Under the pieces are notes generated by a model. The model saw only the letters and a program-made list of their open reading frames with translations, was not told the origin of the DNA and did not search any database. Shown piece after piece: positions 1-61,392 of a DNA stretch of 64,000 nt. The DNA lies in NCBI GenBank assembly GCA_003024785.1, contig PUQB01000094.1:161249-225248 (forward strand). Reading direction: 5' to 3'. The stretch comes from Selaginella tamariscina. Its lineage: Eukaryota; Streptophyta; Lycopodiopsida; Selaginellales; Selaginellaceae. The position numbers and the translations under genes are program-made. Positions within the stretch are counted from its first letter, which is position 1, and each line of letters starts with the position of its first letter.

Positions 1-19
1 GGTATGTTGAATCAATCCC

Positions 20-870
20 GACTAACTCTGTCTGAGACGGAGAAGGTTTACAAAATACCAATGGAGGGAACCGAGAAGGTGGTGGGATTAATTTCACCAT
101 CCCTTACATGGTGGGCGGGATTAATCCCGCCGCGTACGCATTCCCTGCGCGGAATCGGGCGGGATTTATCCCGCCGCCATTGGCCTGCCTGAAGGGCCTA
201 GGCGGCGGGATTAATCCCGCAAGATTTCGCACAGGGCATTGGCGTTCGGCGGGATTAATCCCGCCGACTAAGGCCCGAGTGAAGGGCCTGGGAGGCGGGA
301 TTAATCCCGCCGAACGCCAATGCCCTGTGCGAAATCGGGCGGGATTTATCCCGCCGCCATTGGCCTGCCTGAAGTGCCTAGGCGTCGGAATTAATCCCGC
401 CCGATTCCGCGCAGGGAATTGGCGTCCGGCGGGATTAATCCCGCCGCATAGGGATCGAGTGAAGGCCCTGGGCGGCGGGATTAATCCCGCCGAGTCTTCA
501 ATGCCTGTTGGAGAATGAATCTCGCCACCCTTCCCTTTTTCCTCCATTGGTGAGTTGGACCAATCCCAAACGTTTCTGTCTAAGACGTAGAAGGTTTACA
601 ACATACCAATGGAGGGGACTGGGAAGGGTGGCGAGATTCATTTAACCATCCCTTACATGGTGGGCGAGATTAATCCCGCCTCCTTTCTGGAGTCACTGAA
701 GGGGTGTGAGAAATAAATCCTGCCCAGTTCTCTCTGAGACCGAGAAGGGTGGCAAGATTAATTCCGCACTCCCGTTCAAGGCCTCCAGAAAGGTGGCGAG
801 ATTAATCCCGCCCACTCTTTCAGGAGGCATTGAAGGGGTGGCGAGATTAATCCCGCCGCACCTTCCATGT
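20..870. repeat. Array of 18-bp palindromes with ~45-bp spacing
   Basis: The core GGCGGGATTAATCCCGCC, a perfect 18-bp palindrome, recurs with small variations about every 45 bases from about 113 to 490 and more loosely to 870. The spacers also pair: the spacer near 221-244 is the reverse complement of the one near 311-334, and the one near 133-155 resembles the reverse complement of the one near 402-425, so the array can fold into nested hairpins. A block around 20-130 recurs around 570-690. Long reading frames on both strands here come from the GC-rich repeats and are not taken as genes. The same core occurs in an intron of the next gene and around 18.8-22 kb. Confidence 0.9.
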
Positions 871-930
871 GAATATATATGTGTATTAGTATATATAAGT
901 TGCATATCTCATTTTATTTACTTTTATCAT

Positions 931-1042
931 CTCTTCATATTATTTCGAGTAAAAGCTAGGAATCTATGTAAAACTGTCCAGAGCTCTCTTTCATATTATT
1001 TCGAGTAAAAGCTAGGAATCTATGTAAAACTGTCCAGAGCTC
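931..1042. repeat. 56-bp tandem duplication
   Basis: Two almost identical adjacent units start at about 931 and 987, each running through a CGAGTAAAAGCTAGG stretch to GAGCTC. The second unit runs into the left arm of the hairpin at 1032. No coding potential is seen. Confidence 0.85.
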
Positions 1043-1110
1043 ACATTTGTGGTGGTTCTAAAACGAAATGTTATCTTTCTTTTGCACTAACACAAATGTG
1101 AGCTTCGGAC
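1032..1110. repeat. Hairpin upstream of the ParB/MTase-like gene
   Basis: Imperfect inverted repeat: the arm at 1032-1051 (containing GCTCACATTTGTG) pairs with the arm at 1091-1110 (containing CACAAATGTGAGC) across a loop of about 39 bases. The same hairpin lies upstream of the second gene copy, at about 19020-19105 in inverted orientation, so it belongs to the duplicated unit. It could be a terminal structure, a promoter element or a binding site. Confidence 0.8.
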
Positions 1111-1256
1111 AGTTAATTACGTCTACTTCTCTCTGTGTATTATTTTTGTATATTCGGGTTTATACAAGTGTGTGTGCGTTTTTATATAATTTATATTTAT
1201 AGTGTATTATTTTGCAGAAGGACGATTTGATCAAACAAGGAGATCGAGTCATTAGT

Positions 1257-4200
1257 ATGGAGTCGTCGTCAAATTCTGGGTAAGAATTAAAATAAAATCT
1301 GTTATACTCGGATACTTGAACTAATCATTTTTGTATTCAGATGTGGAATTGAGGTGACATTAAAGACAAGAGCAGGAGAAGAGATGGGCAGGGGGATTCT
1401 GGAATCAACTTGGCCATATTTTAAGATAAATGGGAAGCGCATTGGAGCAACCATGGCTGCTGTCAAATTAACCTCTGTCACATCTCATGGACAAGCAAAA
1501 CAATGGAAAGTAGATTCGCTAGTCAAGCACCCGAAAGCAGGCTGCGAACCCAGATTGGACGATGCTCGACAGATATGCCTTGTTCCATCCAATGTCACGT
1601 TCTCGGATCCAGAGGTCGTCAGTTACAACATTAATCTCGGGTGGTTTTGTCGACTTGTGGATAATGACGTTCACGTGTTCACTAATGATGTTGACCTTGG
1701 AGTTCTTCTTCAACTCAACGAAAGCCCATCTATGGAGGGGATCCATCTGGATGTCTACTTCGAAGATCTTCAGACTCATCGAGTAGGTGTATTGTCAGGA
1801 GATATTGTTTCACAATACAGAAAATCAGCAAGTGGAGCAATCTTCCCTCTTGACATTGAAGAAGAACACAGCGACATCATAAGGGAGATTGAGAGGTGGC
1901 TCGGTCTCAGGTTCTCTACAGATCACGTTCAATTTGCTTAGGAAGCTTCGGGAGCTGGAGAGTGTGCCGAGAACACTAGAACAGCTGCAGTCGGGGATCA
2001 CACATGTTGATTCGGATCGCAAAAGAAAATCATCAATCGTTTTGTCAGCTGCACCTGTGGCATCTCATGCTGCAATAAGTCACAAGGAAATGATGTTGGA
2101 TGATAAGATTTATCCTTGTAGGGTTAAATATTGCAGCGTCAACCCAAACTTCAATTACAGGCCACTCAACCAGGAACGTGTAGCTGAGCTCATGGAGAAG
2201 ATGAAGGACGACAATTCTTATACCGTTCCACATAATGCTGTTTTGTGTCCATACTATGAAAGAAGGAAGGGTGCTGACAAAGTCTGGATCACAACACCAG
2301 AACAACTCATGAAGATTCAGACGGAGAATAAAAGATCTATCAAGTACTACATCATTAGTGGCCAGCACACAATAACGGCAGCCCAACGACTTCTCGAGAA
2401 CACAACAAAGGAACGATGGCAACAAAACTTTCCGAGCATACCCGTGAGAAGCTGACAAAAAGATCGGCGTTTTTAGCTAAGCCGAATCTCACAATCGAGC
2501 AGTACCATAAGTTATCGGCGGAATGGGACGCTGCCGACACCAACCACTACAACAGCAAAATATGGGAGAAGTTTAAACACACGCGAGCCGTGTGGGAATC
2601 TCTTCAGCGACCACAAAGAGCTACCGCAGGGAATACACAATCTGCGGAATACCGGGTAAGCAAATTGTTTGGGCGGGATTTATCTCGCCGGTATATTAAT
2701 CTGTCTTTTTCCTCAGAGAGTTGAAGAAATTGCAGCAGTTGATTTTGCCCAGGTGGGCGGGAAGGAAACATCATTTCTGATGATGTTGATTTCTTGCCCC
2801 GAAGATAGGATCTTTGCCAAATGGTTGGGGATTATGGAATCCTTTTCAAAAGGAACACTGAAGAAGAAGCAGACAAGTGAAGGGGAGCCCTCAGAAAAGT
2901 CTGCAAAGAAACCCAGTAAGACGCCGAAGGCTAAGTCTGTTCAATCTACAAAGGATGTAGACAACGATTTCAAGCTCACATGGTTGAAGCCTTTAAATGG
3001 AACAACGATGGAGGAGATGGAAGTCTTGGCTGATTTGGTGATCGATGGCAAACTACAAATTAATAACAGCAGCCCAACCTCTCCTTTTCATCTCAAGGCA
3101 ATGGAGTTGAAGACGGTCAGGCATTTCAAGGAGTGGTTGGGAATACACTGCCACAAACTGGGTTGGACCTCGACTTCAACATATGAAGAGGTTAGCAAAT
3201 ATTTGCATGTGACGAACGATGATATGCTTGTCGAATGGGTGAACCAATCGGAAGATCTAGGCAAGAATCTATTGCACGCCAACGCCAAAAAGGAGAACAT
3301 TGGGATGACGCCTTCTCTTATGGCAGTCCTTCAGCAGCGGAGAACCGAATTGAACCTTATAAAGGAGGATGCTACGAATCACGACAAGCCCTACAGATGT
3401 TTGTTGTTAGATTCGGAGACTTTATGGGGTAACATCACTGCTTGTAGGAAACCGTTTCAATTGTTCGTGATGGATCGGCGGGTGTCAAAAAATCTTTCGA
3501 CAGATAGGGCACTAGAGGATCTGGTGGAGAAACTTAGCCGTGCAAGCATATACATAGAAGGTATTTATTATTGAATTCATGCTTGCGCTCTTCACTGATA
3601 CCTACTTTTTCAGGTATTTATTTCTTGATTCTTGCTCATGTCACCGATACTTTTGCCTTCGCCTTCGCCAAGAAGAATAGACATCGTTGGACAGGATTTT
3701 ATATGAACGATGCTAATCCCAAGTGCATTGATACTGTTGTTCACTTGGTTGTTAGGAATGCGCCAAACAATTTCAAGCTTCCAAATGACTGGCCAGGCAT
3801 CTGTTTGCACTCCAACGGCCCTGAACCTCCATCCGATACACCGATAGGTATGAGTGACGTATTCGGCAATGTACGTTATCCAAACATTACAAGTCAAGCG
3901 GCACGGAGCATCGTCAACTTGATCAGGGGTCCTCACAGTGATGCGTGGGTTTTTGACTACTGCACTAGGGGGTCCGTCTTGAAGGAGTGTTACCTTCGGC
4001 ATACATGTGTGTTTGCCGTTGAGAAGGATAAGACCATGGTTGAGGACCTGAACAAGTGGATAGATTGGGTCTCAACTGAGTACCCCAACGATCCATAAAG
4101 GCGTATTTGAGAAAGTTCCCTCCAGATAAGTGCGATAGCTCTGAAGGTGAATCTGGTTCAATCTCGGAGTCTGAGAACGAACATCAATCAGATATTAGAC

Positions 4201-4358
4201 CGGAAGTTATCTCGAGGAGTACAGAACATTCGCACACTCCAGGACCCATGGAAACATCAATAGAAGATGCAGAAGATCTTGAACCATCTCACAAGCGGCT
4301 TAGACCTTCTTCGCCTCATTCAGAAGGTAATAGCGAAGAAGAATTGATAATGAATTGA
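1257..4358 (+). CDS. ParB-like / beta-class methyltransferase-like protein, five exons
   Basis: Proposed exons are 1257-1279, 1341-1895, 1942-2655, 2717-3560 and 3614-4358, with GT-AG introns of 46-61 bases. The frame closes at about 960 residues if one base is missing near 2400-2450 and one near 4090. Residues about 250-345 resemble a ParB/sulfiredoxin domain: an NPNFNYRPL segment, a helix, then YYIISGQHTITAAQRL and IPV, in the place of the usual GERRxxAA box. A Lys/Ser-rich linker follows at about 473-513. The C-terminal third reads like a beta-class N4/N6 amino-methyltransferase: HVTDTFAFAFA as motif V-like, then SQAARSIVNLIR and VFDYCTRGSV...AVEKD as motif I. No clear DPPY-type motif IV is seen, so catalysis is doubtful. 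The tail is acidic, with a basic HKRLRP patch. The N-terminal ~200 residues are unrecognised. Family assignment is by motif only; a host hypothetical gene is an alternative. Confidence 0.6.
2656..2716 (+). other. 61-nt intron carrying one palindrome unit
   Basis: GTAAG donor and CTCAG acceptor, phase 0, joining two conserved stretches of the ParB/MTase-like frame. Its centre holds GGCGGGATTTATCTCGCC, a variant of the flanking palindromes. The second gene copy has an intron at the same place (about 17583-17648 on the minus strand), also with a palindrome. Confidence 0.8.
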
Positions 4359-4562
4359 TAGAGTGATGAATAGTTGTAAATGAGTGTAACATAAGGCATT
4401 TTTGTATATTTCTTTTATATTTGTACAGAAAATAAATTCTCAAGGATTAATGAAGCTTTTAGTTCAAACATGGGTCACACATTAACAAGGTAAATAATAT
4501 ACCTTGATAATTTTAAGGTCAGCTAATTATCATTTTGCAGATGTAATGAAATAATTGAGAAC
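4359..4562. other. Spacer after the ParB/MTase-like gene
   Basis: About 200 bases holding the likely 3' untranslated region, with an AATAAA-like signal near 4429. A short inverted repeat, CAAGGTA...TATACCTTG, lies at 4486-4506. The whole stretch is conserved in the second copy (about 16570-16745, minus strand), so it is part of the duplicated unit. Confidence 0.55.
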
Positions 4563-5803
4563 ATGGATTTTCAGCATTGCCATGAGGTAAGAGAGGGGTT
4601 TGGCGACAATTTTTGTGCCACATGTCAGAATGACAGAGTTCATGCAGGAAATGGATAATAATGCAGCTCAAAACATCGTTACCATGGGGGCCACTTCAGT
4701 TTTTGCATCATCATTTTTATTGGCTTCAGTTCCGAAATCATTTCTTCAGCGCATGCAATATCTGAATCTTGTAAGGATGATGTACAATTAAATGATGAAG
4801 GGATAGGCAACGAAATAGTGGCAACGGATAAATGTGAAAGGGAGCAAACAAGTGATTTGCAAAGTATTCAAGAGGCAACGCTATCTCATGTTACTCATGG
4901 CCATATTGTGTTGTTGGATGTCAATGGTGTTCTGCTTCATCGACAAAGGCCCGAGGATAGAAAAACAGAAATCAAACAAGGAGATTTCATTCCTTGTCAT
5001 GGTAAATTTCGATATGATATTATTTTTCGTCCAGGGTTGGATCGTCTCTTTCAAAAGCTTAAGGAGATGGGTGCGCTTGTGGGGATTTGGTCATGCATGC
5101 AGATTCATAACTTAACACCGCTGTTGAGTTTACTTAAGAAACATTGTAGTGTTGCAGAAGAGGTGATTCGTAAAGATTGGATTTTTGACCAGCGAATGTG
5201 TTATAAACCTCTCGAATTTCACAATATAAGAAAGGAAAGCAAGCCATACTTCTTCAAGAATGAAAGAATAATTGGGACTCATGGGGAGATCAGTCGCTTA
5301 AGGATAACGAAGAATGCACATATCTTAGTAGTAGACGACTCTCCTCAGAAGGCTATGCTCAACCAAAACATTGCTTGTATTCATCCAATCACTTTCGATC
5401 CATATTCTGATACGATATCATGGATGAGCTAGTGAACTACTTGGATACGTGCCTCAGAAAGAAGAATCTCGAAAATTTTTGTGAGCAGTATCCACCGTAT
5501 CATACATTTCCTGAAGCTTTTCTTTCTCGTGATATTGAATTTTATAAAATGAAGGATAGCAACCGGGCGCTTTATAATATTATTCTTAAGGAACGTCAGT
5601 TTTTAGATGAGCCTTTATGCAGACCTTCTCTTATCACATCTTATGTATTAACAAGGATGGCAACTCCCAATTGCATTCGTGAGAGTGTTAAGTGGTGGCA
5701 ACAACATCAAGATATTGACCAAAATGATTTGATTAATCCGGAGAGTGATGATTTAGACAAAATGAAAAGATTTCTTTGTATGATAGAAAGAAAGTATTTA
5801 TAA
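4563..5803 (+). CDS. FCP1-like HAD phosphatase, frameshifted
   Basis: HAD-superfamily protein of the plant FCP1-like type, which acts as a phosphatase on protein substrates in characterised relatives. Motif I is LLDVNGVLL at about 4908-4934, with Asn in the second acidic position (DxN rather than DxD), as I recall for a plant subgroup. Motif IV is ILVVDDSPQKA near 5328-5360. The frame breaks near 5405-5418 by one missing base and continues as DELVNYLDTCL, the usual end of the domain, followed by a helical tail to 5803. The likely first exon is 4563-4586, with an 80-nt intron to 4666; the 5' part is uncertain and may itself lack a base. The region to about 4700 is also present in the inverted second copy, so this gene travelled with, or lay beside, the ParB/MTase-like gene. 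Confidence 0.6.
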
Positions 5804-6239
5804 AAAATTAACATGTTGATAAGAAAATGATTTCATTTGTAATTATGTTTGATAGTATTTCTTCATTATTGTAAACTATTTTTAGAATAATATGAATATT
5901 CTAAGATATTTTAGGAATATTCCTTACTAAGTAAGGTTATTGAAGGATTAATTAATTAATTAATTAATATTTAAGGCTTAATTACATATTAATTAAATGA
6001 TTAATTAATAATTAAAACTTAAGTATTAATTAGTAATTTATTTTATATTCCCATTTTCACGTATGCCCACTTTAGTTACAACGTGCATTTTTTTTGACTA
6101 GAAAAGATTAACCATCATATGGAACAAAGTCATTGCATTTGCCCATTTAATTGAGTTGAATAACTTATTGAATATCCTTGTTATTGTTGCTAACCATTAC
6201 AAAATTTACAGTGATTGTCTCAAATATACAAAATTTACA
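5804..6239. other. AT-rich spacer, no gene seen
   Basis: Contains a TTAATTAATTAA run near 5945-5965 and simple AT-rich DNA leading into the minisatellite. No open frame or structured element recognised. Confidence 0.6.
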
Positions 6240-8115
6240 GTGATTGTCTCAAATATGCCAAGTCTTAGAAGATATTGCAGACTTGTTTTAGGGTTCAATA
6301 ATTGAGTTGGATAACTTATTGATATCCTCGCGATTGTTGCCAACCGTTACAAAATTTAGAGTGATTGTCTCAAATATACTAAGTCTTAAAAGCATATTAA
6401 AGACTTGTTTTAAGGTTCAATATATCTCATGTCAAGTCTTAAAAGTATATTGCAGACTTGTTTTAGGATTCAATATATTTCATGTCAAGAGTCAAGTCTT
6501 AAAATCATGTCAAGTCTTAGAAGTATATTGCAGACTTGTTTTAGGGTTCAATATATTTCATGTCAAGTCAAGTCTTAGAAGCATATTGCAGACTTGTTGA
6601 ATAGTCTTAGAAGCATATTGCAGACTTGTTTTAGGGTTCAATATATCTCATGTCAAGTCTTAGAAATATATTAGAGACTTGTTTTAGGGTTCAATATATC
6701 TCATGTCAAGTCAAGTCTTAGAAGTATATTGCAGACTTATTTTAGGGTTCAATATATCTCATGTCAAGTCAAGTCTTATAAGCATATTGCAGACTTGTTG
6801 AATAGTCTTAGAAGCATATAGCAGACTTGTTGAATAGTCTTAGAAGCTTATTGCAGACTTGTTTTAGGGTTCAATATAGCTCATGTCAAGTCTTAGAAGT
6901 ATATTGCAGACTTGTTTTAGGGTTCCATATATTTCACGTCAAGTCAAGTCTTGTTTTAGGGTTCAATATATCTCATGTCAAAGTCAAGTCTTCTAAGCAT
7001 ATTGCAGACTTGTTGAATAGTCTTAGAAGCATATTGCAGACTTGTTTTAGGGTTCAATATATCTCATGTTAAGTCTTAGAAGTATATTGCAGACTTGTTT
7101 TAGGGTTCAATATATCTCATGTCAAGTTAAGTCTTGTTTTAGGGTTCAATATATCTCATGTCAAAGTCAAGTCTTAGAAGTATATTGCAGACTTTCTTAG
7201 AATCATGTCAAGTCTTAGAAGTATATTGCAGACTTGTTTTAGGGTTCAATATATCTCATGTCAAGTCAAGTCTTGTTTTAGGGTTCAATATATCTCATGT
7301 CAAGTCAAGTCTTAGAAGCATATTGCAGACTTGTTGAATAGATGTGCATATTGCAGACTTGTTTTAGGGTTCAATATATCTCATGTCAAGTCAAGTCTTG
7401 TTTTAGGGTTCAATATATCTCATGTCAAGTCAAGTCTTAGAAGCATATTGCAGACTTGTTGAATAGATGTGCATATTGCAGACTTGTTTTAGGGTTCAAT
7501 ATATCTCATGTCAAGTTCAAGTCTTAGAAGCATATTGCAGACTTTCTTAGAATCATGTCAAGTCTTAGAAGTATATTGCAGACTTGTTTTAGGGTTCAAT
7601 ATATCTCATGTCAAGTCAAGTCTTAGAAGCATATTGCAGACTTGTTTTAGGGTTCAATATATCTCATGTCAAAGTCAAGTCTTAGAAGCATATTGCAAAC
7701 TTTCTTAGAATCATTTGTTTTAGGGTTCAATATATCTCATGTCAAAGTCGTCTTAGAAGCATATTGCAGACTTTCTTAGAATCATGTCAAGTCTTAGAAG
7801 TATATTGCAGACTTGTTTTAGGGTTCAATATATCTCATGTCAAGTCAAGTCTTATTTTAGGGTTCAATATATCTCATGTAAAGTCGAGTCTTAGAAGCAT
7901 ATTGCAGACTTGTTGAATAGATGTGCATATTGCAGACTTGTTTTAGGGTTCAATATCTCATGTCAAGTCAAGTCTTATTTTAGGGTTCAATATATCTCAT
8001 GTAAAGTCGAGTCTTAGAAGCATATTGCAGACTTGTTGAATAGATGTGCATATTGCAGACTTGTTTTAGGGTTCAATATATCTCATGTCAAAGTCAAGTC
8101 TTAGAAGCTTGTTGA
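6240..8115. repeat. Composite minisatellite of hairpin and spacer modules
   Basis: About 1.9 kb of irregular tandem repeats built from two modules. One is CAAGTCTTAGAAG...TTGCAGACTTG, with 7-bp inverted ends (CAAGTCT/AGACTTG). The other is TTTTAGGGTTCAATATATCTCATGT. Modules are shuffled, truncated and duplicated, with a higher-order unit of about 130 bases repeated around 7260-7500. Short open frames inside are repeat translations. The left flank near 6180-6300 has two further copies of an AAATTTACAGTGATTGTCTC unit. Confidence 0.9.
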
Positions 8116-8481: not shown

Positions 8482-8598
8482 GTTTAAATGATTTTGAGGT
8501 AGTGACAAGCTTCTGCTCCCGCTTGTCATCGATCCCATTTTCTTTTTTTCTTTCTTTTTTATTTTTATTTTGTTTCCGATTTTCTTCTTCAACGCATC

Positions 8599-9423
8599 AT
8601 GTTCAAGCATGCTCTTCGTGAGCAAGTTGTTGCCCTCCAGCAACAGATCGAACAACTACACCTGAAAAATGATCAGCTCCGACAATGTGCAAATTCTCCA
8701 AAGCCGAAGATCAGCATGCCCGATAAGTTCGATGGTACCCGATCGAAGTTCCAAGGTTTTCTTAATCATCGGTTCTGCTCTTTCGTGGTTCTCAGCCTTG
8801 CTGGAGAACAATGATCTGATCCTTTATAATTTTGAGGAGTTTGTGGAATGGTTCACGGCGATGTTCAGTGACGTGGATCGTGAGAGTGCTACCATCACCA
8901 AACTTTGCCAACTTCACCAAGGGGGTATGTTGGTAGCAGAGTATGCGTCAAAGTTCCAACTCCTTACTTGTGATGTCCCTAGGGAGATTGTGCTCTCAAG
9001 GAGGTTTTTTGGTCGGGGTTGCAGGACGAGATCAAAGACATGTTACTGAATTTTACTATTCCGGAAACCCTCACCAGCATGATAGAGTTGGCAATCCGTT
9101 GTGACAACTGGTTGATCGAGCAGAAATAAGAATGTCAGCATCCTTCTTTCTTCCCGGTGCCGTCTTCTTCCATTTCTCCAATCTCTGTTTCTTCATTTGC
9201 TGATCCATCATCTTCCTCATTAGAACCATCCCCGATGGAATTAGGGCGATCATGTCGAGGCAAGCTTTTGCCAACCGAATGGCAAAAGCGGATTCAGTAC
9301 AAGCTTTGTCTGTACTGTGGGGACTTGTACCACAAGCTGGAGAATTGTCATCGATGTCTAAAGCAAGCTCGTGAAGTGGCCCTTGCTGTGCTGATGGAAA
9401 ATGAGAAGATCCAGCCCGAATAG
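8599..9423 (+). pseudogene. Gypsy gag remnant
   Basis: Begins MFKHALREQVVALQQQIEQL, a coiled-coil-like start, then PKISMPDKFDGTRSKFQGFL typical of plant gypsy gag. The frame shifts near 8790 and again near 9050, and a TAA lies at 9127. A zinc knuckle of CX2CX4HX4C form, CLYCGDLYHKLENC, lies at about 9307-9348. It would have been the structural protein binding element RNA. Confidence 0.8.
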
Positions 9424-9524
9424 GAGCCGTCCGGCTGGATTGTCGTGGAACAACTCATGTTTCTCAAGGCTCTTCACTCAAAACATTTTCCCTTCCTCAT
9501 CTTGAATCCATTCCATCCACGAAG

Positions 9525-9806
9525 GTGTGCAAGTCATTCCATGTTTCGGTGCAGTTGAAGACGCCAGAGGTAGAGTTCTCTGGTAAAGCTTTGGTGGATA
9601 ACGGAGCGAACGCAAATTTCATCGACAAGAATTTTGCTGTCAAGCATGGGATTCGTCTACATCCTTTGAAGACTCCTGGTTCTGTACGGGTAGGACGAGA
9701 TATCAAATCTGGAGCGGTAATAAATGACACAGAGTTCGTCGAGGTCGTTGCTTGCGGTGCTATGTGCAACATCTCCTTCAATGTTGTTCTATTCCAGACT
9801 CTATGA
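9525..9806 (+). pseudogene. Gypsy aspartic protease remnant
   Basis: The frame contains ALVDNGANANFID, the retropepsin active-site region, with DNG where DSG or DTG is normal, so activity is doubtful. It lies between gag and reverse transcriptase as expected. Frame is lost shortly after 9800. Confidence 0.75.
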
Positions 9807-9983
9807 TTATCTTTGGTTTGCAGAGGATCGAGTTGGTGGATCCTGGTTGGAGAGAACGTTTCATGAACAGTTTCCCAGATGTTTCAACTCCGGCCACACT
9901 CTTTTATTCCGATCATGTTCTAGTTCCTCCTCCGCTTCAAGTCTGGCATATCACCTTGAAGTAGTTCAAGAAAGATAGCTGAC

Positions 9984-11325
9984 ATGACCCAGTGTCCATG
10001 TTTGCGATCACAATCTATCCCTGCTCTGCTAAGGATGTTTTTGTTCGTGTCTCCTGCCTTACCAAAGCAGTATGCTGATTTCGCAGACGTCTTTGACAAA
10101 AAGAAAGCTTCTGCTTTGCCACCGCACTGTGAGTACAACTGTCTTATCAATCTCGTTGAGGGTAAGCAGCCATCCTCCGGTCCCATCTACGGTCTCTCAC
10201 CAATAGAGTTGGAGACATTGAGGAAATACATTGAGGAGAATCTTGTCACTGAATTTATCTGTAATTCGCGATCACCGGCTGGTGCCCTAGTATTCTTTGT
10301 TTTCAAGAAGGATGGAAGTTTCCGGCTTGTGGACTACCGAGATCTGAATAAGGTCACCATTCCAAACAACCATCCTCTCCCGCTCATCTCCGACATGCTC
10401 GAGTGTCTTTCTAGTGCCCAGTATTTCACAAAGATCAATTTAAGAGGAGCGTACAATCTCATTCGAATCCGAGAAGGGACGAGTGAAAAACACATTCCGT
10501 ACATGCTAGGAACATTTCGAGTACGTAGTAATGCCGTTTGGCCTGACAAATGCACCTGCTGTTTTCCAACACATGGCTAATGATATTTTCTGGGATTTCT
10601 TCGATTTGTTTGTCATCATGTACCTAGATGACATCCTGATATTTTCCAAGACTCGAGAAGAACACGAACGGCATGTACGGTTAGTCTTAGAGAAGCTTCA
10701 GAAGCACCACCTATCTACCAAGTTGGAGAAGTGCTCTTTCAGTCAGCAGTCTGTCGAGTTCTTAGGGTACATCGTTTCAGCTGAAGATGTTCACATGGAT
10801 CCTACAAAAGTTCAGACTGTATTGGAGTGGGAGAGACCATCAAATGTTCGTGACGTTCGATGTTTTTCTCGGGTTTGCAAACTTCTATTGACATTTCGTT
10901 CAGGATTTCTCCAAGATTGCATTACCATTGACGAAGTTGACTAGCAAGGATGTTCCATTTGTCTGGTCCTTTGAGGCTGAGGAGGCGTTCGAGTTCCTAC
11001 AAAAGGCATTCACCTTGGCACATGTTCTTATCCATCCTAACCCTGTGAAGCCATATTTCGTGGAAGGGATGCCTCTGACTTCGCTATTGGTGGAGTGTTG
11101 TCCCAGGAAGGTCCAGATCATCTTTTCCATCTCATTATTTTCCATTCCTACAAGTTCACTGCACCTGAGATCAACTACGATGTCTATAATGAGCTATTGG
11201 CGATTGTGGATGCCTTTGAAGAGTGGCACAGATTCCTTAAAGGTTCCTCGCATGTGGTTAAGGTGTATTGTGATCACAAGAACCTCCAGTATTGGGCAAT
11301 AGCACGAGTTCTCAATCGGTGTTAG
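9984..11325 (+). pseudogene. Gypsy reverse transcriptase and RNase H remnant
   Basis: The frame from 10050 to 10520 carries the RT fingers (SPAGALVFFVFKKDGSFRLVDYRDLN). It then shifts one base so that MPFGLTNAPAVFQ continues at 10531. The catalytic YLDD is at about 10621-10632. A further shift near 10900 leads into the RNase H region (VPFVWSFEAEEAF at about 10951-10990 and later VVKVYCDHKNLQYW). Domain order is canonical, but the reading frame is broken at least three times. Confidence 0.9.
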
Positions 11326-11689
11326 GTGCGATGGGCACAATTTTTGTCCCAGTTCTGATACATGATTATTCATCGTCCCGGTCGTTTAAATGGCAAAGCA
11401 AATGCTTTATCTTGTCACAGTTACCTAGCTCCAGTAACAAATGAAATCCCATTCGATCAACAAGAACAAGTCATCCTGAGCTCCGACCAGTTGTTGGTGA
11501 ACGCTTTTCCGTTCTTCTGCTCCAGTTGACACTTCGTTTTTGGATCTAATCTGAGAAAGTCTTCCTCAAGACGAGTTTGCTCGTGATGTCCTTGCACATT
11601 TTCAATGAGTTCAACCATTGTCTTCAGGGTCACAACTACGAGATTATGCTGCTTTCCATCTTCATAAGGGTGGCTGTACCACCACATCC

Positions 11690-13110
11690 AAATCTATGTT
11701 CCGGATGGAGAACTGAGGTTGTGAGCTATCCAACATTGCCATGACAACATAGCTGCGGAACATTTTGGCATCAAAAGATGATCGAGCTGGTACAATGTGT
11801 GTTCTAGTGGCCTCGGCTTTGCATGCAGTTGAGAAATTTGTGCGATTTTTGTGACACATGCCAGCATACAAAACTTCCTTGTCATCGACCGTTGGACTAC
11901 TACAACCTTCCATTGCTCAGCAGCCATGGTCCTCCATCGCCATGGATTTCCTAACTGATTTACCACCTTCTAGAGGGTTTGATGATGTCCTAGTCATTGT
12001 TGATCTTTGTTCCTTGCAACAAAACATGTTTGGGTCATGATGCTGCAGATCTGGTGTACCGGGAGGTGTTCCGTCTTCATGGTCTTCCTAATGAACTTGT
12101 CACTGATCGAGGTCCCCAGTTCACTCCAGCATTCTGGCAAAGATTCTTAGATCGGCTACGTATCACCGGGATGCACATCATCCTGAAACAGATGGCCAAA
12201 CAAAGTGCATGATTCAAACTCTAGAACAATATCTCCGATGTTTCATTTCTCATTTGCAAAATGATTGGGTCGATCTCCTTCCTGTTGCCGAGTTTGCGTA
12301 CAACAACATGGCACACTCACGGCACACTCATCCATAGGTGTGTTGCCATTTTTCGCGTTCTCTGGTGTTCATCCTCGCTGGTCCTACAGCTTGCCCATGG
12401 TTCCTGGCCTTACCATTGCTGCCGATGAATCATGTTGAGCATCTCCAATAGGTCTAATTCGTGTACAACAACATGGCACACTCACGACACACTCATCCAT
12501 AGGTGTGTCCCGCATTTTTCGCGTTCTTTGGTTGCTGGTCCTACAACTTGCCCATGGTTCCTAGCCTTACCACTATTGCCGATGATCGTGTTGAGCATCT
12601 CCAACAGGTCCATGAAGAAAGTGCAGCATCATCTTGAACGCGCTCGGGATTTGCAATAACAAACTGCTGATCGTTCCCAGGATTTGCAACAACAAGCTGA
12701 TGATGTTCCCGTTCCTCTCCTCCAACATTCACAATTGGTGACCAAGTGTGGCTCCTCCGGCATCATTGCCAACCACACGTCCCTATGACAAGCTCAACCG
12801 GCGTCATTGGCCAACCACACGTCCCTATGACAAGCTAGACTGGTGTCATTGGCCAACCACACGTCCCTATGACAAGCTGGACTATCAACACTTGGGCCCA
12901 TTTTGCATCATCGAGAGACTCATCGTTCCCGTTCCTCTCCTCTAGCATTCACAGTTGTGATCAAGTGTGGCTCCTCCGGCGTCATTGACCACCACACGTC
13001 CCATTTCGCATCATCGAGAGACTCTCTAATGTGATGTTTCGTCTCGAGCTTCCACCAACCATCCGGATCCATCTCATGTTCATGTTTCTTATTGGAGCCT
13101 TATCATGCTC
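11690..13110 (+). pseudogene. Gypsy integrase remnant with internal duplications
   Basis: Integrase core fragments include [22 protein letters not shown] near 11940-12000 and [18 protein letters not shown] near 12090-12140, the latter with the second catalytic Asp. The C-terminal LGPFCIIERL and FRLELPPTIRIH stretches near 12895 and 13050 match the usual gypsy integrase tail. Segments around 12300-12640 and 12770-12950 are locally duplicated and the frame is broken throughout. Confidence 0.8.
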
Positions 13111-13580
13111 CTTCTGAACCCGGCCGACTTCTTCCACCCCTCCTCCAGTTACAGTTGCTGGTGAACCTGAGTTCAAGGTTGCTGCAATTTTGACTCCAAG
13201 CTTGTTCATGGTCAGCTTTATTTTGAGCATGCTTCTGATCTTGTTGCTGCAATTTTGACCCAGCTTGTTCATGGTCAGCTTCATTTTGGCATGCTTCTGA
13301 TCTTGTTGCTGCAATTTTTGACTCCAAGCTTGTTCATGGTCAGCTTCATTTTGAGCATGCTTCTAATCTTGTTGCTGCAATTTTACTCCAAGCTTGTTCA
13401 TGGTCAGCTTCATTTTGAGCATGCTTCTAATCTTGTTGCTGCAATTTTTGACTCCAAGCTTGTTCATGGTCAGCTTCATTTTAAGCATGCTTCTGATCTT
13501 GTTGCTGAGTTCCATCATCGATATCCAACCTGGACCAGTGATGCGAGGTACTTGTTGCTGAGTTCCATCATCGATATCCA
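12767..13580. repeat. Tandem duplications in the gypsy 3' region
   Basis: Three sets of short tandem repeats. A unit with CCACACGTCCCTATGACAAG occurs three times from about 12772 to 12880. A ~62-base unit with TTGTTCATGGTCAGCTTCAT occurs five times from about 13200 to 13505. A unit with GTTCCATCATCGATATCCAA occurs twice from about 13503 to 13590. They extend the end of the integrase frame, just upstream of the 3' LTR. Confidence 0.85.
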
Positions 13581-13624
13581 ACCTGGACTAGTGATGCAAG
13601 GTACTCATCATCGAAGGGGGGTAG

Positions 13625-13973
13625 TGTAAGGATCATGAATTATTTTTGCCTTTCACATGATTTGAACCCGAGACCTTTCCGCTAACACACATATATGCCA
13701 ACTTGTCTGTATGATCATGAATGCTAAATTACAACCATCAATAGCAAGCGTATATTCATACGCATGTTCCAGACCAGTTGTGGACCACACAATCTTCAGG
13801 ACCTCAAATATATAAACAGGGTTCCAGTTCCAGGTTTCTCAGAATCATTCAACATCAGTCTTTGGCCTTGTGTTTCATTTTATTCATTTCTTTCTTGAAT
13901 ACAATTTCCTCCTTTCAGCTTAAAGGTTCTGCCCTTGTTTTAAAGGTTTCGCCCTTTGCACAAGGTCGTGACA
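13625..13973 (+). repeat. 3' LTR of the 8-14 kb gypsy element
   Basis: Begins TGTAAGGATC and ends GTCGTGACA, about 349 bases, preceded by a GAAGGGGGGTAG purine tract that fits a polypurine tract. Homologous to 8126-8481. Confidence 0.85.
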
Positions 13974-14520
13974 ATTGGGTGACACAATTTATCTAGTGGG
14001 ATTTATTCCACTATCTATAAGTCTCTACATTACAAGCACCTCACCAAGGGTATTGGATTGGCACAATTACAATCGGCGGGATTTTTCTTGCTAACTATAA
14101 GATTATATTTGAAATAAGTACCTCGTGAGTTGATAGAATTTTATTTGTGGGATTAATCATGACAAAGTTACCTGCTAAATATCATGGACGATAATTTCAA
14201 AACATTTTAGCAAGATAAATCACACAAGGTAAAACAATCTCACAAATGATGGTGGACAATTATCACTAACATTCTCAAAACATTTTAGTGAGATAAATCT
14301 TATGGGTTAAGCATTCTCACAAATCATGGTTGGAGGAATAAATCTTGTCGATTAAAACAAGTAGACAAATAATAAATCCCACTAACTAAAACAAGCTTAC
14401 AAATAATAAATCCCTCCATAACACTCCAAAACAATTTAGTGAAATAAATTCTGTAGGCTAAGCACTTTCACAAATGATCATTGGAAGGATAAATCTAACC
14501 AACATGCAGTGTAGGGTTGC
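13974..14520. other. AT-rich spacer with decayed GGATTAATC-like motifs
   Basis: No gene. Several weak relatives of the palindrome family (for example GGCGGGATTTTTCTTGC near 14075 and GGGATTAATC near 14150) and a repeated AACATTTTAG(T/C)(G/A)AGATAAAT phrase suggest a degraded repeat. Confidence 0.4.
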
Positions 14521-15140
14521 AACGTCAAGCCACGATCCAGGAACCAGGAAAAGAACAGGATTCCAAGGACAGGAAGGCTTGACTCAGGAACAGGACTGAG
14601 AGCAAGACATGAACCAGGGAATAGGAACGGACGGATCTAGGAGCAAGACAGGAAAGCGCAGGACAAGATCCAGGAACAAGACAGAAGCAGGATAGGATCC
14701 AGGAGCAGGACAGGATCCAGGAGCAGGACAGGAAACAGGAGCGAGACAGGAACAGGACAGGAAACAAGACAAGAACAAACGAGACGAGATTGATCGTAGT
14801 AAGACTGGTGTTGATAGTAACTAATTGTACAACAATTAGGTCGGAGCTTTTATGCTCACAACTCCAAGAGCTAATCTAGGCATGAGTGCTAAAAGTGATT
14901 GCATGCATGCAAAAGTGATTGCATGCATGCAGAGGCTAAGATGAGTCCACATGTCCCTTATCCTCTAGGCATATCCTGTGGCATATCCTGTAGGAATATC
15001 CTGTAGGAATATCCTGCAACCGAATCCTGTGTCCGGAATCCTGGTAGGAATATCCTATAGGAAAGTCCTGCAACCCATATCCTATATCCGGAATCCTGTA
15101 GGAAAGTCCTGCAACCCATGTCCTGTATCTGGAAACCTGT
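14520..15140. repeat. Low-complexity CAGGA and TATCCTG tandem repeats
   Basis: From 14530 to 14790 the plus strand is purine-rich, with short units of the CAGGAACAGGAC type. From 14975 to 15140 another short-period repeat uses TATCCTGTAGGAA and AATCCTG units. A doubled AAAAGTGATTGCATGCATGC lies at about 14890-14930. No gene. Confidence 0.8.
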
Positions 15141-16424: not shown

Positions 16425-18765
16425 AACAAGTGGTCCTCATAGTGACGATGTTTTGAGTTGCATTGTTGTACTTTGTCATTCTAACATGTGGCACAAGTAA
16501 CTTTCTTACCTCATGCCACTGTTAAGGATCCTTGTTCTCAACTATTTTATTACATCTGTAAAATGATTGTTAGTTGGCCTTACAAGGTATATTATATACC
16601 TTGTTAATGTGTGACCCATGTCTGAACTAAAAGCTTCATTAGTCCTTGAGAATTTATTTTATGTACAAATATACACAATATACAAAAATGCCTTATGTTA
16701 TACTCATTTATAACTATATGTCACTCTAACAACTCATTAACAATTCATCTTCGTTGTTACCTTCTAAGCCAGGCAAAGAAGGTTTTAACTGCTTAGGAGA
16801 TCGTTGATATTTGCTTGGAAGGATTTTTTGACACTTGCCAATTTATCACGAATATTTCAAACGGTTTCCTGCATGTAGTAATGTTACCCATAAAGTCTCT
16901 AAATCCGGCAGCAAACATCTGTAAGGCTTGTCATGATTCGTAGTGTCCTCTTTTATCAGGTTCAACTCCGTTCTCCTTTATTAAAGGATTACCATAAGAG
17001 AAGGTGTTATGGTGATGTTCTTCTTTTTTGCATTGGCATGCAATAGATTCTTATTCAAATCTTCCAATGGGTAAATGGACAAACATATCATTGTTTATCA
17101 CATACAAATATTTGTTGACCTCCTCGTATGTTAGAGCTGAGGTCCAGCCCAATTTGGCAGTATATTCCCAACCACTCCTTGAAGTGTTTGGTCATCTTCA
17201 ACTCCATTACCTTGAGATGAAAAGGAAAGGTGAGGCTGCTGTTGTTAATCTATAATTTGTCATCAATCATCAAATCAGCTAACACATGATGCAATTTAAT
17301 CTATTTATGGGTGCACTTGTGGGATTGGTCATAATTCCCAAAGTGCACCCATAAACAGATTTAGCCTTGGGTGTCTTACTGGGTTTCTTTTGTAGACTTC
17401 TCTGAAGGGATCCTCTTCACTTATCTACTTCTTTCTTTAGTGTTCCTTTTGTAAAAGATTTCATGATTCCCACCTATTTGGTGAAGACCTTTGTCCTCGA
17501 GACAAAAAATTAACATCATCAGGAAGGATGTTTCTTTTCCACCCACCTGGGCAAAATCAAATGTTGCAATTTTTTTGGCTCTCTACACATGGATTAATTA
17601 GAAAATTATTATTCTAGCGGGATAAATCCCGCCAAGAATTTTTCTTACCCGATATTGATGTAGTACTTTATTGGTTTTTTACACTCCATCTGAATCTTCA
17701 CGATTTGTTCTAGTGTTGTCACTCACATTATCTCAATCCCTTTCTTTCTTTCATAGTATGGACACAAAACAACATTATGTGGAACGGTGTATGAATATAT
17801 CATTCATTTTTCCATGAACTCAGCTACACGTTCTTGGTTGAGTGGCCTATAATTGAAGCTGGGGTTAATGTTGCAATACTTAACCCTACATTTGTAAATC
17901 CTGTCATTCAACATCATTTCCTTGTGGCTTATCGCAACATGGGATGGCAATGGTGTAGTTGATAGAACGACATAAGACTTTCTTTTACAGTCAAAATCAA
18001 GATATGTGAATCCCGACTGCAGCTATTCTAGTGTTCTTGACACATTCTTCTTCCGATTGGTTTACCCATTAGACAAACATATCATTACGATAACGTTTAA
18101 TTTGGTTGGGAATCTTCAGAGGCTGCCTCTAAAAGATTCCCAAGCAAATTAAATGTGAACTTGGGACCGAGTTATCCTCTCAATCTTCTTAAAATGTTGT
18201 TATGTTCTTCTTCAATAAGAGTTAGGACGATTGCTTCATTCGTAAATCTTCTGTAATGTGAAGAAATATCTACTATGAATACACTTACTCAATGGGTATT
18301 CAAATCCTCAAAGAAGACATCTAGCCGAATCCCGTTCAAAGATGGGCTTTCATTTAATTGAAGAAAATTCCACGGTTAACATCATTAGTGAAAACGTAAA
18401 TGTCGTAATTAACAAGCCGACACAACCACCCAAGGTTCAAGTCGTGTTTGGGCCTCCTCCAAATCTGAGAATGTTTACATTAGATGAAACAAGATATATA
18501 TTTTGAGCATCGTTCAAATCTCGGTTTACAGCCTACCCTCAAGTGCTTGACTATTGAATCTACTTTCATTGTTTTGTTTGTCCATGTGATGTGATAAAGT
18601 TAATTTGACAGCAATTACGGTTGATCCAATGCACTTCCTATTTATTTTAAAATATGGCCAAGTCGATTTCAGAATTCCCCTGTCCATCTCATCTCCTCCT
18701 CTTGTCTTTAATGTCACCTCAATGCCACATAAATCATAAGTTCTCATAAACATTACAGGGTCTAT
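16425..18765 (-). pseudogene. Second, internally deleted copy of the ParB/MTase-like unit
   Basis: Reading the minus strand from 18765 downward, CGIEVTLKTRGGDEMDRGIL matches the first copy from 1342, and homology continues with many substitutions and stops. Two internal deletions are clear. About 295 bases are missing at the junction near 17655, removing the ISGQHTITAAQ motif up to the palindrome-bearing intron. A second deletion near 16790 removes the equivalent of about 3500-4310, including the methyltransferase motif I. A ~20-bp-arm hairpin (17298-17362, arms with ATGGGTGCAC) replaces part of the middle. Homology runs on through the 3' spacer and the first part of the neighbouring phosphatase gene to about 16425. 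Confidence 0.85.
17616..17633. repeat. Palindrome inside the conserved intron of the second copy
   Basis: GCGGGATAAATCCCGC sits in the 66-nt intron (about 17583-17648) at the same place as the palindrome at 2676-2693 in the first copy. Retention in a decayed copy shows it was present before duplication or was gained in parallel. Confidence 0.8.
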
Positions 18766-18794
18766 AAATATTTCTTTGAAGTGGTCAGACTAAT

Positions 18795-18870
18795 TAGATG
18801 ACGGGATTAATCTCGCCAGGTTTGATTAAAAGAATAATCGTCTTGGCGGAATTAATCTTGCCAGGCCCGA
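18795..18870. repeat. Two palindrome-family units upstream of the second copy
   Basis: GACGGGATTAATCTCGCC near 18800 and GGCGGAATTAATCTTGCC near 18845 flank the start of the inverted gene copy. They sit between the gene start and its conserved hairpin, whereas in the first copy the array lies outside the hairpin. Confidence 0.75.
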
Positions 18871-19019
18871 AAAGTGAAGAAATTATAATATACAAATAAA
18901 CATGTACATATAAGTGAAGGTGTGTGTGAGATAGAGATAAAAAACTTATATATACGAATACACTATTACATTTACATACACCCTTCATCGTCTTGGAGAG
19001 AAGTGAATGGGATTAAGTG

Positions 19020-19112
19020 TCTAAAGCTCACATTTATGATAGTACAAAAAAAACGCACATCATTTGGTTCTAGCACTACCACAAATGTGAACTTTGAACA
19101 ATTTTATAGGGT
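19020..19112. repeat. Conserved hairpin upstream of the second copy
   Basis: Inverted repeat with arms AGCTCACATTTATGATAG and CTACCACAAATGTGAACTTT, the counterpart of 1032-1110. Its orientation relative to the gene is the same, so the duplicated unit extends at least to here. Confidence 0.75.
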
Positions 19113-19144
19113 TTATTAGTTTTCACTTAAAAATATTTTAATAA

Positions 19145-20104
19145 GGGCTGTTTCACACCAACCTTTACTTAGCCCAAACTTTTAAGTTAAATCTGTGTAA
19201 TGGAAAATTTTAAATGTAAAATAATCACACTAGTAAAGTTAAGGTCACCTTTAGTCACAATTACCATATTAATACGTAAATGTTAGTTTTTAAAATAATT
19301 TTCTTCACACCAAAGATTTTAATAAAATGTAGTTCTAAATAAAAAGTAATCTTCACATAACCATTATTTAAAACATGTAAAAGTAAACGCTTCACACCAA
19401 CAACTACTTATAAATTTTATTTAAAGCAAATCTTTTTCATTCAAACATTTGCAATATATTGAGCTAAACTATGTCTAATGTTTTCTCCATCCACGATCAC
19501 GACTCTTCTTTTCTTTGGCCGTGACCTTCTCCTCAGTAGCACCATCTAAAATGCAAACTATCATGCATGCGTGTAATCTAATCTAGAAATTACCTCGGAA
19601 ACTCTTTTTTTGTGTGGAATTGTTGTCTTCTCCTTTAGGCACCTCAACTACAAAACCTTAAGAAGAAAAGGGCCAAAAATGTGAGAAGAAAGCATGGAGT
19701 CTCAAGTTACAAACCTGATTTGTGTTCATCTTCTTCATAGCAGCTACCAAATCCTATTTGCAACTCACACCCTAAACCTGGTCACCACGTTTGTGTATTC
19801 AGTCACACCCTAAATCAAGTCACCACACCTCTACTCAGCTTGCCGCACCTCTGCCATGCCCTTAATTAAAGGTGTAAACGTTAGAAATTATACATTTAGC
19901 TAAATGTTAAAAGCACTATAGAAATTAAAAACATTTACACGACCTTTAACTTTAAAGTAATTGTACTTTTGGTGTGAAGAAATTTTGATTAAATATAACT
20001 TTTACTTTAGCACTTTTAATTTATAAGTAAAGGTAATGTGGTGTGAAGAAAAGACGATTAAAATTCACATTTAACCCTAAGTAAAGGTTGGTGTGAAATG
20101 ACCC
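19145..20104. mobile_element. Harbinger/Tourist-type MITE, 960 bp
   Basis: Terminal inverted repeats: the left end GGGCTGTTTCACACCAACC pairs with the right end, whose reverse complement reads GGGTCATTTCACACCAACC. Both ends are flanked by TAA (19142-19144 and 20105-20107), matching the three-base TAA/TTA target duplication of PIF/Harbinger elements. Sub-terminal copies of TTCACACCAA occur inside near 19305 and 19390, and inverted near 19966 and 20037. No transposase frame is present, so it is non-autonomous. Confidence 0.85.
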
Positions 20105-20169
20105 TAAGATTAAGAGTAATAAGAGGAGATAAAAAAAACTTTTATATATTAATATACATGTACATTCAC

Positions 20170-20684
20170 ATATAGGTGGCGGGATTAATCTCACCCACCA
20201 TTTCTAAAAGGCAGGGAAGGGTGGCAAATTAATCCCGCCACCGCTTCCCTGCCTCCTTGAATTTATGTGTGTGAGAATATACAAATACATACAATATAAA
20301 AATACATGTGTGTGTAAGAGAGATAGATAAATGAATTATAATATAAGATACACATGTACATATAAATACAGGTGTGTTGTGTGTGAAATAAAGATAAAGA
20401 AACTTCTATATACTTATACATAGGTCATACAGGGTGGTGGGATTAATCTTGCCACCCTTTTCTGTCTTAAAGAGAAGTTGACAGGATTAATCTTGCCCAC
20501 CATTTTAGGAGGCAGGGAAGGTGTGGCGGGATTAATCTCGCCACCACAACCATGCCTCCTAGAATGTGTGTTGAAAGAGAGAGATAAAGGAATTATATGT
20601 ACAAATACACATGCACATATAAATACATGTGTGAGTAAGAAAGAGATAAAGAACTTATATATATTAATATGCAAGTACATTCAC
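20170..20684. repeat. Palindrome-family units with CA/GA microsatellite spacers
   Basis: Units of the GGCGGGATTAATC(T/C)CGCC type near 20178, 20225, 20435, 20480 and 20525 alternate with GTGTGAGAGAGATAAAG and ATACAAATACA(C/T) simple sequence. Related to the array at 1-870. Confidence 0.8.
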
Positions 20685-22050
20685 ATATAGTGTGGCGGAT
20701 AAATCTCGCCACCCTTTCTCCCAGAGAGTGGTGACGGATTAATCTGGCCACCCCTTTTAGGAGGCAAGGAAGGGTGGCGAGATTAATCCTACCACCCTTC
20801 TAGGAAGCAGGGAAGGGGTGGCGAGATTAATCCCACCACCACTTCCTTGCCTCATGCATGTGTGTGTGTGAGACAAAAGAAATATAAAGAACTTATAAAA
20901 TACAAATAAACATGTATATATACATACAATTGTGTGTGTGTGAGAGAGAGAAAGAAATTACATATATACAAATACATACACATATACATTCAGAGTGTGT
21001 GTTTGAGAGAGAGATAAAGTAATTATATATATACAAATACACAGGTACATACACATATATTTGTATGTGTGTAATAAATAAATAAATAAATTATATTATA
21101 TAAATACAAACATATATATGTATATGTATATACAAGTGTGTGTGTGTTTGTGTCATAGATAAATTAAATTATACGATAGTATACAGATACACACATACAT
21201 ATATTATACTATATTTTATTTATCTATCTCTTGCACACACACACACACTCCTATACATATATATGTGTGTGTATTTATAGAATTTAATTTATTTATTTAT
21301 CTCTTGTACACACACGCACACTCCTATATATATATACATATATATATGTGTGTGTTTATCTATATAATATAATATATTTATTTATCTTTCGCACACACAC
21401 GCACACTCCTGTATATACATATACATATAGATGTGTGTGTGTGTATCTATATACTATTTGTATAATTTAATTTATTTATTTATCTCTTTCACATATACAC
21501 ACACACACCTGTATATACATATACATATATATGTTTGTATTTGTATAATATAATTTATTTATTTATTTCTTACACAAACACAAACTGTATGTGTATGTAC
21601 TTGTGTATTGTATATAATTACTTTATCTCTCTCTTAAACACACACTCTTGAATGTATATGTATGTGTATATTGTATATATGTAATTTTTTATCTCTCTTT
21701 CACACACACACAACTGTATGTATATATACATCATTTATTTGTATTTTTAAGTTCTTTATATTTCTTTTTTTGTTACACACACTGCTTGAGGCAAGGAAGT
21801 GGTGGCAGGATTAATCCTGCACCCCTTCCTTGCCTAGTGGGCAGAATTAATCCGCCACCACTCTATAAGATAGAGAAGGGTGGCCGGATTAATCTCGCCA
21901 CCCATTCCCTGCCTCCTAGAAGGGTGACCGGATTAATCTCGCCACCCCTTCCTTGCCTCTTAGAAGGGTGGCCGAATTAATTCCGTCACCCTTTCCCACC
22001 ACTCTCTGAGATGGAGAAGGGTGGGAGATTAATCCCACCACTATATGTGA
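20685..22050. repeat. Long inverted repeat with palindrome units at both ends
   Basis: The sequence is self-complementary about a centre near 21195. The 20700-20945 block (palindromes, then GTGTGTGTGTGAGACAAAAG and ACTTATAAAATACAAATAAAC) reappears as its reverse complement at about 21690-22050. The flanking ACATTCACATATAG at 20685 pairs with CTATATGTGAATC at 22042. Right-arm material at 21225-21600 contains about four tandem units of roughly 85-90 bases (TTTATTTATCTCTTxCACACACAC...). A foldback-type element or an inverted duplication would fit. No gene. Confidence 0.8.
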
Positions 22051-27169: not shown

Positions 27170-27849
27170 TCATCCCCCTCTCAAGATGTGGCTTCTTGCC
27201 TATCAAGGTTGTCCTCCTCCCTGGATGAGTGTCTTTTGGTGGAATGTAGTAGTTGATACACAAGAGCGACATGTTGTGACTCTCGAACACCATCACGCCG
27301 TTGTAAGTGATACACTTGCGTTCCCAACTGTTCTTCAACACTCCAAGGCCTGACCCATCGAGGTTGAAGCCTTGCTGCATGTGTTTGATCCCCTAGCCTT
27401 GGAAATTTAATGAGAACCAAATCTCCCACTTGGTATTGAGGTGGCGTTCGATGTCGTTGATTGTAAGTCCGACGCTGATACTCTTGTGCCCGAGCTCACT
27501 GTTCTCCACCTTGAACATACAATAGCAGAAGGACTTGGTTCAAATGCTCCAACCACATACGCCCATCCATATACCGTGCCTCATGAGGAGTGATGCCAAC
27601 TGCTGGTGGCAATACAAGTTCACGACCATACAAAGTTTTTAATGGGAAATTCTTGTTAACTTGTGAGGGGCTGAAACATAAGCGAATTGGAGATATGGAA
27701 GCCACATATCCAATCCTTATGGTCAGGGCTCACATACTTGGCAAGCATGACTTTGAAAGTTTTGTTCAACCTGTCAGAGTTTTTACCTGGTGCCACAAAG
27801 GTGGCTTGCCAGGTGCCAACCCTGGAATCCCCTCTCTTGGAAACCCACG

Positions 27850-60126: not shown

Positions 60127-61392
<1,266 letters not shown>

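Follow-up and report, generated by a model that had tools for sequence, protein, structure and literature searches.

The left end of a 64-kb window of the Selaginella tamariscina genome (the whole stretch analysed, 64,000 nucleotides of contig PUQB01000094.1, positions 161,249 to 225,248) contains a gene of several exons for a ParB-like protein, with an array of 18-bp palindromes upstream (array A) and a phosphatase gene downstream. We find that the gene and the palindromes are parts of one multicopy plant DNA transposon of ~14.7 to 14.8 kb, an assignment that we regard as practically certain. An earlier note on this stretch had proposed that the gene joins a ParB-like fold to a methyltransferase-like part, forms a pair with the palindromic sites, and belongs to a mobile or selfish element. 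The last of these proposals is borne out: the element has terminal inverted repeats and a transposase-like frame, and it exists in several young copies.

Searching the window for the palindrome GGCGGGATTAATCCCGCC yields 24 matches with ≤3 mismatches, compared to 0.00 expected from 100 shuffles: 12 at 114-857, 1 inside the gene at 2672-2689, and 11 at 17616-21943. These counts confirm that the palindromes described beside the gene are real. All 12 sites of array A have ≤2 mismatches, and those at 114-491 show a 44/46-bp spacing. Five of them are exact (114, 248, 294, 428, and 474), so that the "at least nine" upstream palindromes of the earlier note hold for near-matches (12) and not for exact ones (5). 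A third, strongly decayed cluster has a spacing other than 44/46 bp; 5 sites are observed in 13501-15000, compared to a mean of 0.14 and a maximum of 2 in 300 shuffles. Outside the arrays, the whole window contains 7 sites at 5 or 6 mismatches, a count also reached among 20 shuffles (mean 3.65, maximum 7). When the two 180-bp halves of array A are compared, mismatches affect 3/72 palindrome positions and 22/108 linker positions (Fisher p 0.0018), and between its inverted arms 5/72 and 20/80 (p 0.0038), in comparisons that are biased toward conservation since the sites were picked by palindrome match. The better conservation of palindromes than of linkers argues that single sites matter.

The full extent of the element is visible in a sibling copy, E87 (L087 plus L088), which runs from C1:796443 to C1:811238 (14,796 bp). 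Identity between E87 and the window element is 99.0% for the left part and 97.9% for the right; over window 987-5900 it is 99.3%, and over 1-986 it is 96.8%. Three loci share the left edge at which the element match ends. The 26-bp terminal inverted repeats read TGCA(A/C)GTTGTAACTAAA(A/G)TGGGCATG; the left edge carries TGCAAGTTGTAACTAAAATGGGCATG (one base shorter in E87), and the right edge, inverted, carries TGCACGTTGTAACTAAAGTGGGCATG. Both terminal repeats are present at two copies, the window element and E87, and the left-type repeat is found at six further places (L085, L086, L089, L093, L094, and, with 6 mismatches, L091). From left to right, E87 comprises a terminal repeat, minus-strand DUF7869 frames (E 1e-26 and 1.2e-13), a distal array, about 3.6 kb of sequence, a proximal array, the ParB-like gene, the phosphatase gene, and the second terminal repeat. 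We take the DUF7869 frame to be the transposase candidate. Element homology runs past the phosphatase gene to the right terminal repeat. On the phosphatase side (4360-5800), the window element differs from siblings E83, E84, and E90 at 11/936, 10/980, and 13/753 positions, compared to about 4% in the ParB-like exons; this lower divergence possibly reflects recombination or different constraint.

Genome-wide (300,702,823 bases, 1391 contigs), GGCGGGATTAATCCCGCC occurs with ≤1 mismatch at 46,888 places, and a reversed-pattern control at 0. We sampled stretches around the first 100 matches listed, all exact and on two contigs; these stretches contain 15 arrays. A gene copy starts 0.36 to 0.45 kb from the array in 5 of the 15 (L083, L084, L088, L090, and L092). 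All 5 gene copies carry exactly one more site (≤3 mismatches) inside the gene, 1.32 to 1.33 kb downstream of the start of exon 2, as in the window (L083 2599, L084 7348, L088 2334, L090 2415, and L092 2275), and 4 of the 5 have a second, distal array. Another 7 of the 15 are distal arrays, located 3.7 to 3.8 kb inward of a left-type terminal repeat. The second array of L090 occupies the distal position by alignment with L083, and the edge of L086 holds a gene fragment (residues 596 to 628) about 4.4 kb from its array. The earlier note had named a spread of palindromes through the genome, with no enrichment near the gene family, as an outcome that would refute it. The sites are indeed spread, yet 12 of the 15 sampled arrays are placed in copies of the same element, 5 by the adjoining gene and 7 by the left terminal repeat. 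Five 8-kb control stretches on the same two contigs contain 0 sites, 0 gene matches, and no element sequence; these controls are few and were set at round coordinates away from the listed places, so that the absence of sites, but not that of gene and element, is partly by choice. The same 18-bp palindrome is also exact in 49 bacterial-genome stretches, of which several belong to a single Prevotellaceae or a single Anaerolineaceae assembly, and in 1 viral contig; these occurrences are probably independent of the plant element.

The exon frames of the window gene are 1341-1895, 1943-~2440, ~2401-2655, 2717-3560, and 3614-~4095, followed by a tail that extends to 4358, and the protein encoded in the present splice model has about 870 to 960 aa. 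The model at 1896-1941 and the frames near 2400-2480 and 4096 are uncertain because single-base indels differ between copies. Six such indels separate the exons of the window gene (copy A) from those of E87, reflecting either frame breaks specific to single copies or assembly errors of that kind. An early idea that 2444-2481, like 1896-1941, is a very short intron was weakened by E87, in which a single frame stays open through the GQH box of the ParB-like segment and beyond it. A therefore has at least one frame break that E87 lacks; mutation and assembly error are indistinguishable as its source.

Codon-position substitution patterns show that the ParB-like protein is under purifying selection. 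A second, decayed gene copy in the window (copy B), which lies beside the sites at 17616-21943 and is absent from the earlier note, differs from A at 110/568, 74/569, and 149/567 of codon positions 1, 2, and 3 (three exons; chi-square p 1.2e-7), and the bias is significant in all three exons taken separately (p 0.022, 0.024, and 0.00015). The ratio of nonsynonymous to synonymous substitution rates (dN/dS) is 0.34 over 546 codons; 8 codons at which B has a stop were left out. Stratified by CG, CHG, CHH, and A/T context, the bias persists (permutation p 2e-4), with no codon-position bias in the CHG stratum alone. Similarly, A differs from E83 at 26/857, 23/855, and 57/854 of the three positions (p 2.7e-5), from E84 at 22/849, 25/858, and 61/852 (p 1.1e-6), and from E90 at 23/853, 24/857, and 63/855 (p 3.6e-7), three tests that are not independent, as these siblings may have common ancestry. 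E92 and E87, with 15 and 10 substitutions, are too similar to A for the codon test (p 0.82 and 0.90). When the exons are taken singly, against E83, E84, and E90, the bias is clearest in the ParB-like exon 3 (p 0.0034, 0.0015, and 0.0005), followed by exon 5 (p 0.031, 0.016, and 0.009); it is suggestive only in the methyltransferase-like exon (p 0.11, 0.052, and 0.075), and exon 2 shows none (p 0.68, 0.72, and 0.52).

Copy B has lost the regions that correspond to A 2358-2647, which holds the GQH box, and to A 3499-4281, the methyltransferase-like part. An array lies upstream of it in the same relative position as in A, and the intragenic palindrome is kept. With A as reference, C-to-T changes in B affect 41/119 CG (0.34), 49/157 CHG (0.31), and 105/641 CHH (0.16) sites. 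C-to-T change weighted toward CG and CHG is the mark of a methylated plant repeat, and the pattern is consistent with a copy that is methylated and silenced.

Pfam, NCBIfam, and PHROGs give neither a ParB nor a methyltransferase match for the ParB-like protein. We also compared it with profiles and sets of our own, made from phage and plasmid proteins (10 proteins carrying the ParB part, and 22 methyltransferase sequences). The ParB profile meets A at YYIISGQHTITAAQRL only. All ParB scores are the best of ten segment-family comparisons and hence weak, with a query that carried some out-of-frame residues after the box: the hmmsearch shuffle rank gives p 0.03 with the segment alone and 0.09 with the full-length protein, Smith-Waterman comparison with 9 of the 10 ParB proteins gives p 0.013 for the mean score and 0.15 for the best, and hhalign at the GQH box gives E 0.007 and a probability of 5%. 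The ParB-like fold of the earlier note narrows to this box, where the assignment is plausible but weak.

The methyltransferase-like call, in turn, fails every sequence test. Against the C-terminal part of A, the 22 methyltransferase sequences do not outscore shuffles (Z -0.06 and 0.2), and the profile behaves likewise. Beta-class methyltransferases carry the motifs DPPY and DPFxGSG. By eye, the C-terminal part has the order of a beta-class enzyme with degenerate motifs: DSETLW and DYCTRGS are kept in 5/5 siblings read, bar one T to S, and neither the catalytic DPPY nor the S-adenosylmethionine-binding FxGxG motif stands at the expected place in A or in any of the 5. We treat this part as a resemblance only; if the fold is right, the enzyme is probably dead. 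Single-sequence structure models are too poor to use (pLDDT 35.6 in one), and a search of PDB sequences yields two designed proteins at E 1.2 and 1.4. Matches by tblastn to phages are at chance level only, and viral contigs are likewise uninformative. A protein-database search returned nothing, as did its phosphatase-frame control; the database thus seems not to cover this plant, and its silence is uninformative on plant relatives. Rfam and tRNA scans gave nothing useful.

Table 1. Features of the transposon, its gene copies, and its palindrome arrays (window coordinates unless a locus is named)
Feature	Position	Strand	Remarks
Right-hand part of transposon copy A	1..6087	+	Left end outside window at C1326:152659 (L095 1360); total 14,677 bp
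Proximal palindrome array A	114..857	.	12 sites near GGCG[GA]GATT[AT]ATCCCGCC; 26-nt linkers, orientation alternating
ParB-like / methyltransferase-like accessory gene	1257..4358	+	Several exons, short introns; exon frames backed by codon-position bias
ParB-like segment with SGQHTITAAQRLL box	2096..2480	+	Weak profile match centred on box; box in 5/5 siblings, S to N in one
Lone palindrome in predicted intron 2656-2716 of ParB-like gene	2672..2689	.	Matching place in copy B is 17616-17633
Methyltransferase-like segment	3383..4095	+	DSETLW in place of DPPY, DYCTRGS in place of DPFxGSG; without statistical homology
NIF / FCP1-type phosphatase gene (PF03031), inside element	4662..5803	+	E 2.3e-10 for 4662-5429, window copy
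Right terminal inverted repeat	6062..6087	-	3/26 bases differ from left repeat
Third cluster of sites, strongly decayed	13995..14500	.	5 sites, 5 or 6 mismatches; without adjoining gene copy
Copy B of gene, decayed	16428..18730	-	Stops and frameshifts
Array B, upstream of gene copy B	18800..22039	.	Degraded palindromes
Arrays with left-type repeat	L083 with L094, L085, L086, L087, L089 second, L091 second, L092 with L093		L091 repeat weak, 6 mismatches

Elsewhere in the window, an array of nested tandem repeats (AGTCTTAGAAGCATATTGCAGACTTG...) occupies 6198-8103, directly right of the right end of the transposon. Retrotransposon remains with RVT_1 reverse transcriptase lie at 8500-12600 and 27184-30800, weak aspartic protease matches below the cut-off at 9405-9803, and a Copia-type reverse transcriptase (RVT_2, E 1.9e-23) at 38490-38762. 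An O-methyltransferase with a dimerisation domain (PF00891, PF08100), a kind common in plants, is found at 60309-61389.

Several known systems offer comparisons. In bacterial ParB-parS, a ParB-fold protein is accompanied by several palindromic sites near its gene, with a palindrome that differs from the present one. Unlike that system, the present one belongs to a transposon and not to chromosome partition, and the Pfam scan of the ParB-like protein, which was empty, identified no helix-turn-helix part. Phage ParB-methyltransferase fusions such as QGJ85250.1 have the same order, with a ParB-like N-terminal part and a beta-class methyltransferase C-terminal part, but QGJ85250.1 has intact catalytic motifs, and no significant sequence similarity links the phage fusions to the plant protein beyond the marginal one at the GQH/GHQR box. 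We know of no domain in common between the ParB-like protein and VANC, another transposon protein considered below. Members of the Sola1 superfamily of transposons are characterized by a Sola1 transposase and a TTAA target duplication.

Judged by description, the closest precedent appears to be the ParB-like plus DNA methyltransferase gene of one such element, Sola1-1_Ec32 of Ectocarpus (element 21.5 kb, protein 1104 aa; PMC12477816). In the passage of that source considered here, ParB plus DNA methyltransferase proteins of algal transposons are proposed to bind and modify their own element, with the target DNA unnamed, and similar proteins are cited from green and red algal transposons, including Bostrychia (Iyer 2011; Petroll 2025, as cited in PMC12477816). 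Both elements are described as large DNA transposons with the same proposed domain pair and with the accessory gene on the strand opposite to the transposase there and to DUF7869 here. The plant host, the DUF7869 frame in the left arm, and the degenerate catalytic motifs set the present element apart, as do the palindrome arrays and the intragenic palindrome, no arrays being mentioned for Sola1-1_Ec32 in that passage (PMC12477816). VANC proteins of VANDAL transposons in Arabidopsis are reported to bind a short arrayed motif and to demethylate their own copies (PMC5735166, PMC10398659). The likeness to our element lies in a transposon-encoded protein and a short motif repeated densely in tandem in upstream regions and introns of the genes of the element itself; the VANC motif, as described, has 9 bp and is arrayed in one orientation, and binding to it is reported where we infer it here (PMC5735166, PMC10398659). 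Fungal transposons have been described as carrying TET/JBP genes (PMC12730594).

We give about an even chance to the reading that the gene encodes a transposon accessory protein that binds the palindromes of its own element and is VANC-like in action. The left arm carries the DUF7869 frame, on the minus strand, as candidate transposase; the right arm, on the plus strand, would encode the accessory DNA-binding protein, composed of a ParB-like part and a probably dead methyltransferase-like part, and carries the phosphatase gene after it. The accessory protein would recognize the 18-bp palindrome. By way of the dense array next to its promoter, the distal array, and the site within its intron, it would then mark copies of its element. 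Marking might prevent silencing, as VANC proteins do in VANDAL elements, or might allow a transposition complex to assemble. Without catalytic motifs, the protein would act as a reader or clamp and not as a methylating enzyme. A more specific version, a self-recognition system evolved by a plant transposon family, in which a ParB-derived clamp with a dead methyltransferase domain loads at the palindromes, spreads over the element, and protects it against silencing, with tens of thousands of cognate sites in a single genome, seems to us doubtful.

Several observations weigh against an accessory protein that binds these sites. The pairing of gene and sites claimed in the earlier note stands as co-occurrence within one element, with binding an added assumption, and such co-occurrence would also be seen with palindromes that serve the transposase or have no function at all. 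Similarity to ParB is marginal and similarity to methyltransferases is absent, and the transposase role of DUF7869 is presumptive. By eye, the 2 copies with both ends show no exact target-site duplication. The distal array of the window element was not seen, part of the element outside the window being N. In L084, the matching sequence starts at the proximal array, and there is no distal array although the stretch reaches there. Finally, no link to a gene or to the end of an element was found for 3 of the 15 sampled arrays (L089 first, L090 second, and L091 first).

Large DNA transposons commonly contain dense internal repeats, and in Spm/CACTA elements, subterminal repeats are bound by the transposase. 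The palindromes could likewise be transposase binding sites to which the ParB-like protein is unrelated, a view favoured by the presence of two arrays in 4/5 sibling copies and by the candidate transposase that the element carries. However, the E87 arrays are not near the termini, the distances being about 3.8 kb at the left end and about 5.2 kb at the right, and 5/5 siblings have one site inside the accessory gene; we consider this explanation rather unlikely. About equally unlikely, in our judgment, is that the arrays are foldback DNA whose transcribed hairpins feed small RNAs, either as a silencing trigger or as a passive by-product of repeat expansion, with no cognate protein. Folded as RNA, array A (109-495) reaches -317 kcal/mol over 387 nt (z -22.4 versus shuffles), with z -14.6 for 500-870 of the same array and z -13.4 for 20400-20860 of array B, and the CG/CHG-type decay of copy B is also consistent with silencing of this kind. 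Yet such a strong fold is expected because nested palindromes fold well whatever their function; the palindromes are better conserved than the linkers, which make up the long hairpin, and the gene retains a single palindrome within it.

If the protein were an active enzyme, guided by its ParB part, that methylates adenine at N6 or cytosine at N4 in the element, this would agree with the domain pair reported in Ectocarpus and with the green and red algal relatives cited in that account (PMC12477816). The methyltransferase part here is, however, without sequence support, and DSETLW and DYCTRGS stand in place of DPPY and FxGSG in A as in all siblings read, bar the single substitution given above. 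We rejected an active enzyme as the default reading and consider it very improbable. That a host gene merely lies beside an unrelated satellite would fit the great abundance of the palindrome in the genome, but this explanation, to which we attach almost no probability, is refuted by the terminal repeats, by several copies with the same gene-array order, and by the empty control stretches.

The accessory gene is of a known kind; what is new here is the plant host, the visible candidate target, and the degenerate motifs. Among the top-ranked entries listed in searches of open-licence papers, we found no report of a ParB-plus-methyltransferase transposon gene in a land plant. With a candidate target, the 18-bp palindrome, visible in arrays and inside the gene, in a plant and with selection on the protein, the proposal made for the algal transposons becomes directly testable. 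Degenerate as they are, the catalytic motifs would favour a protein that reads or clamps the element over one that methylates it.

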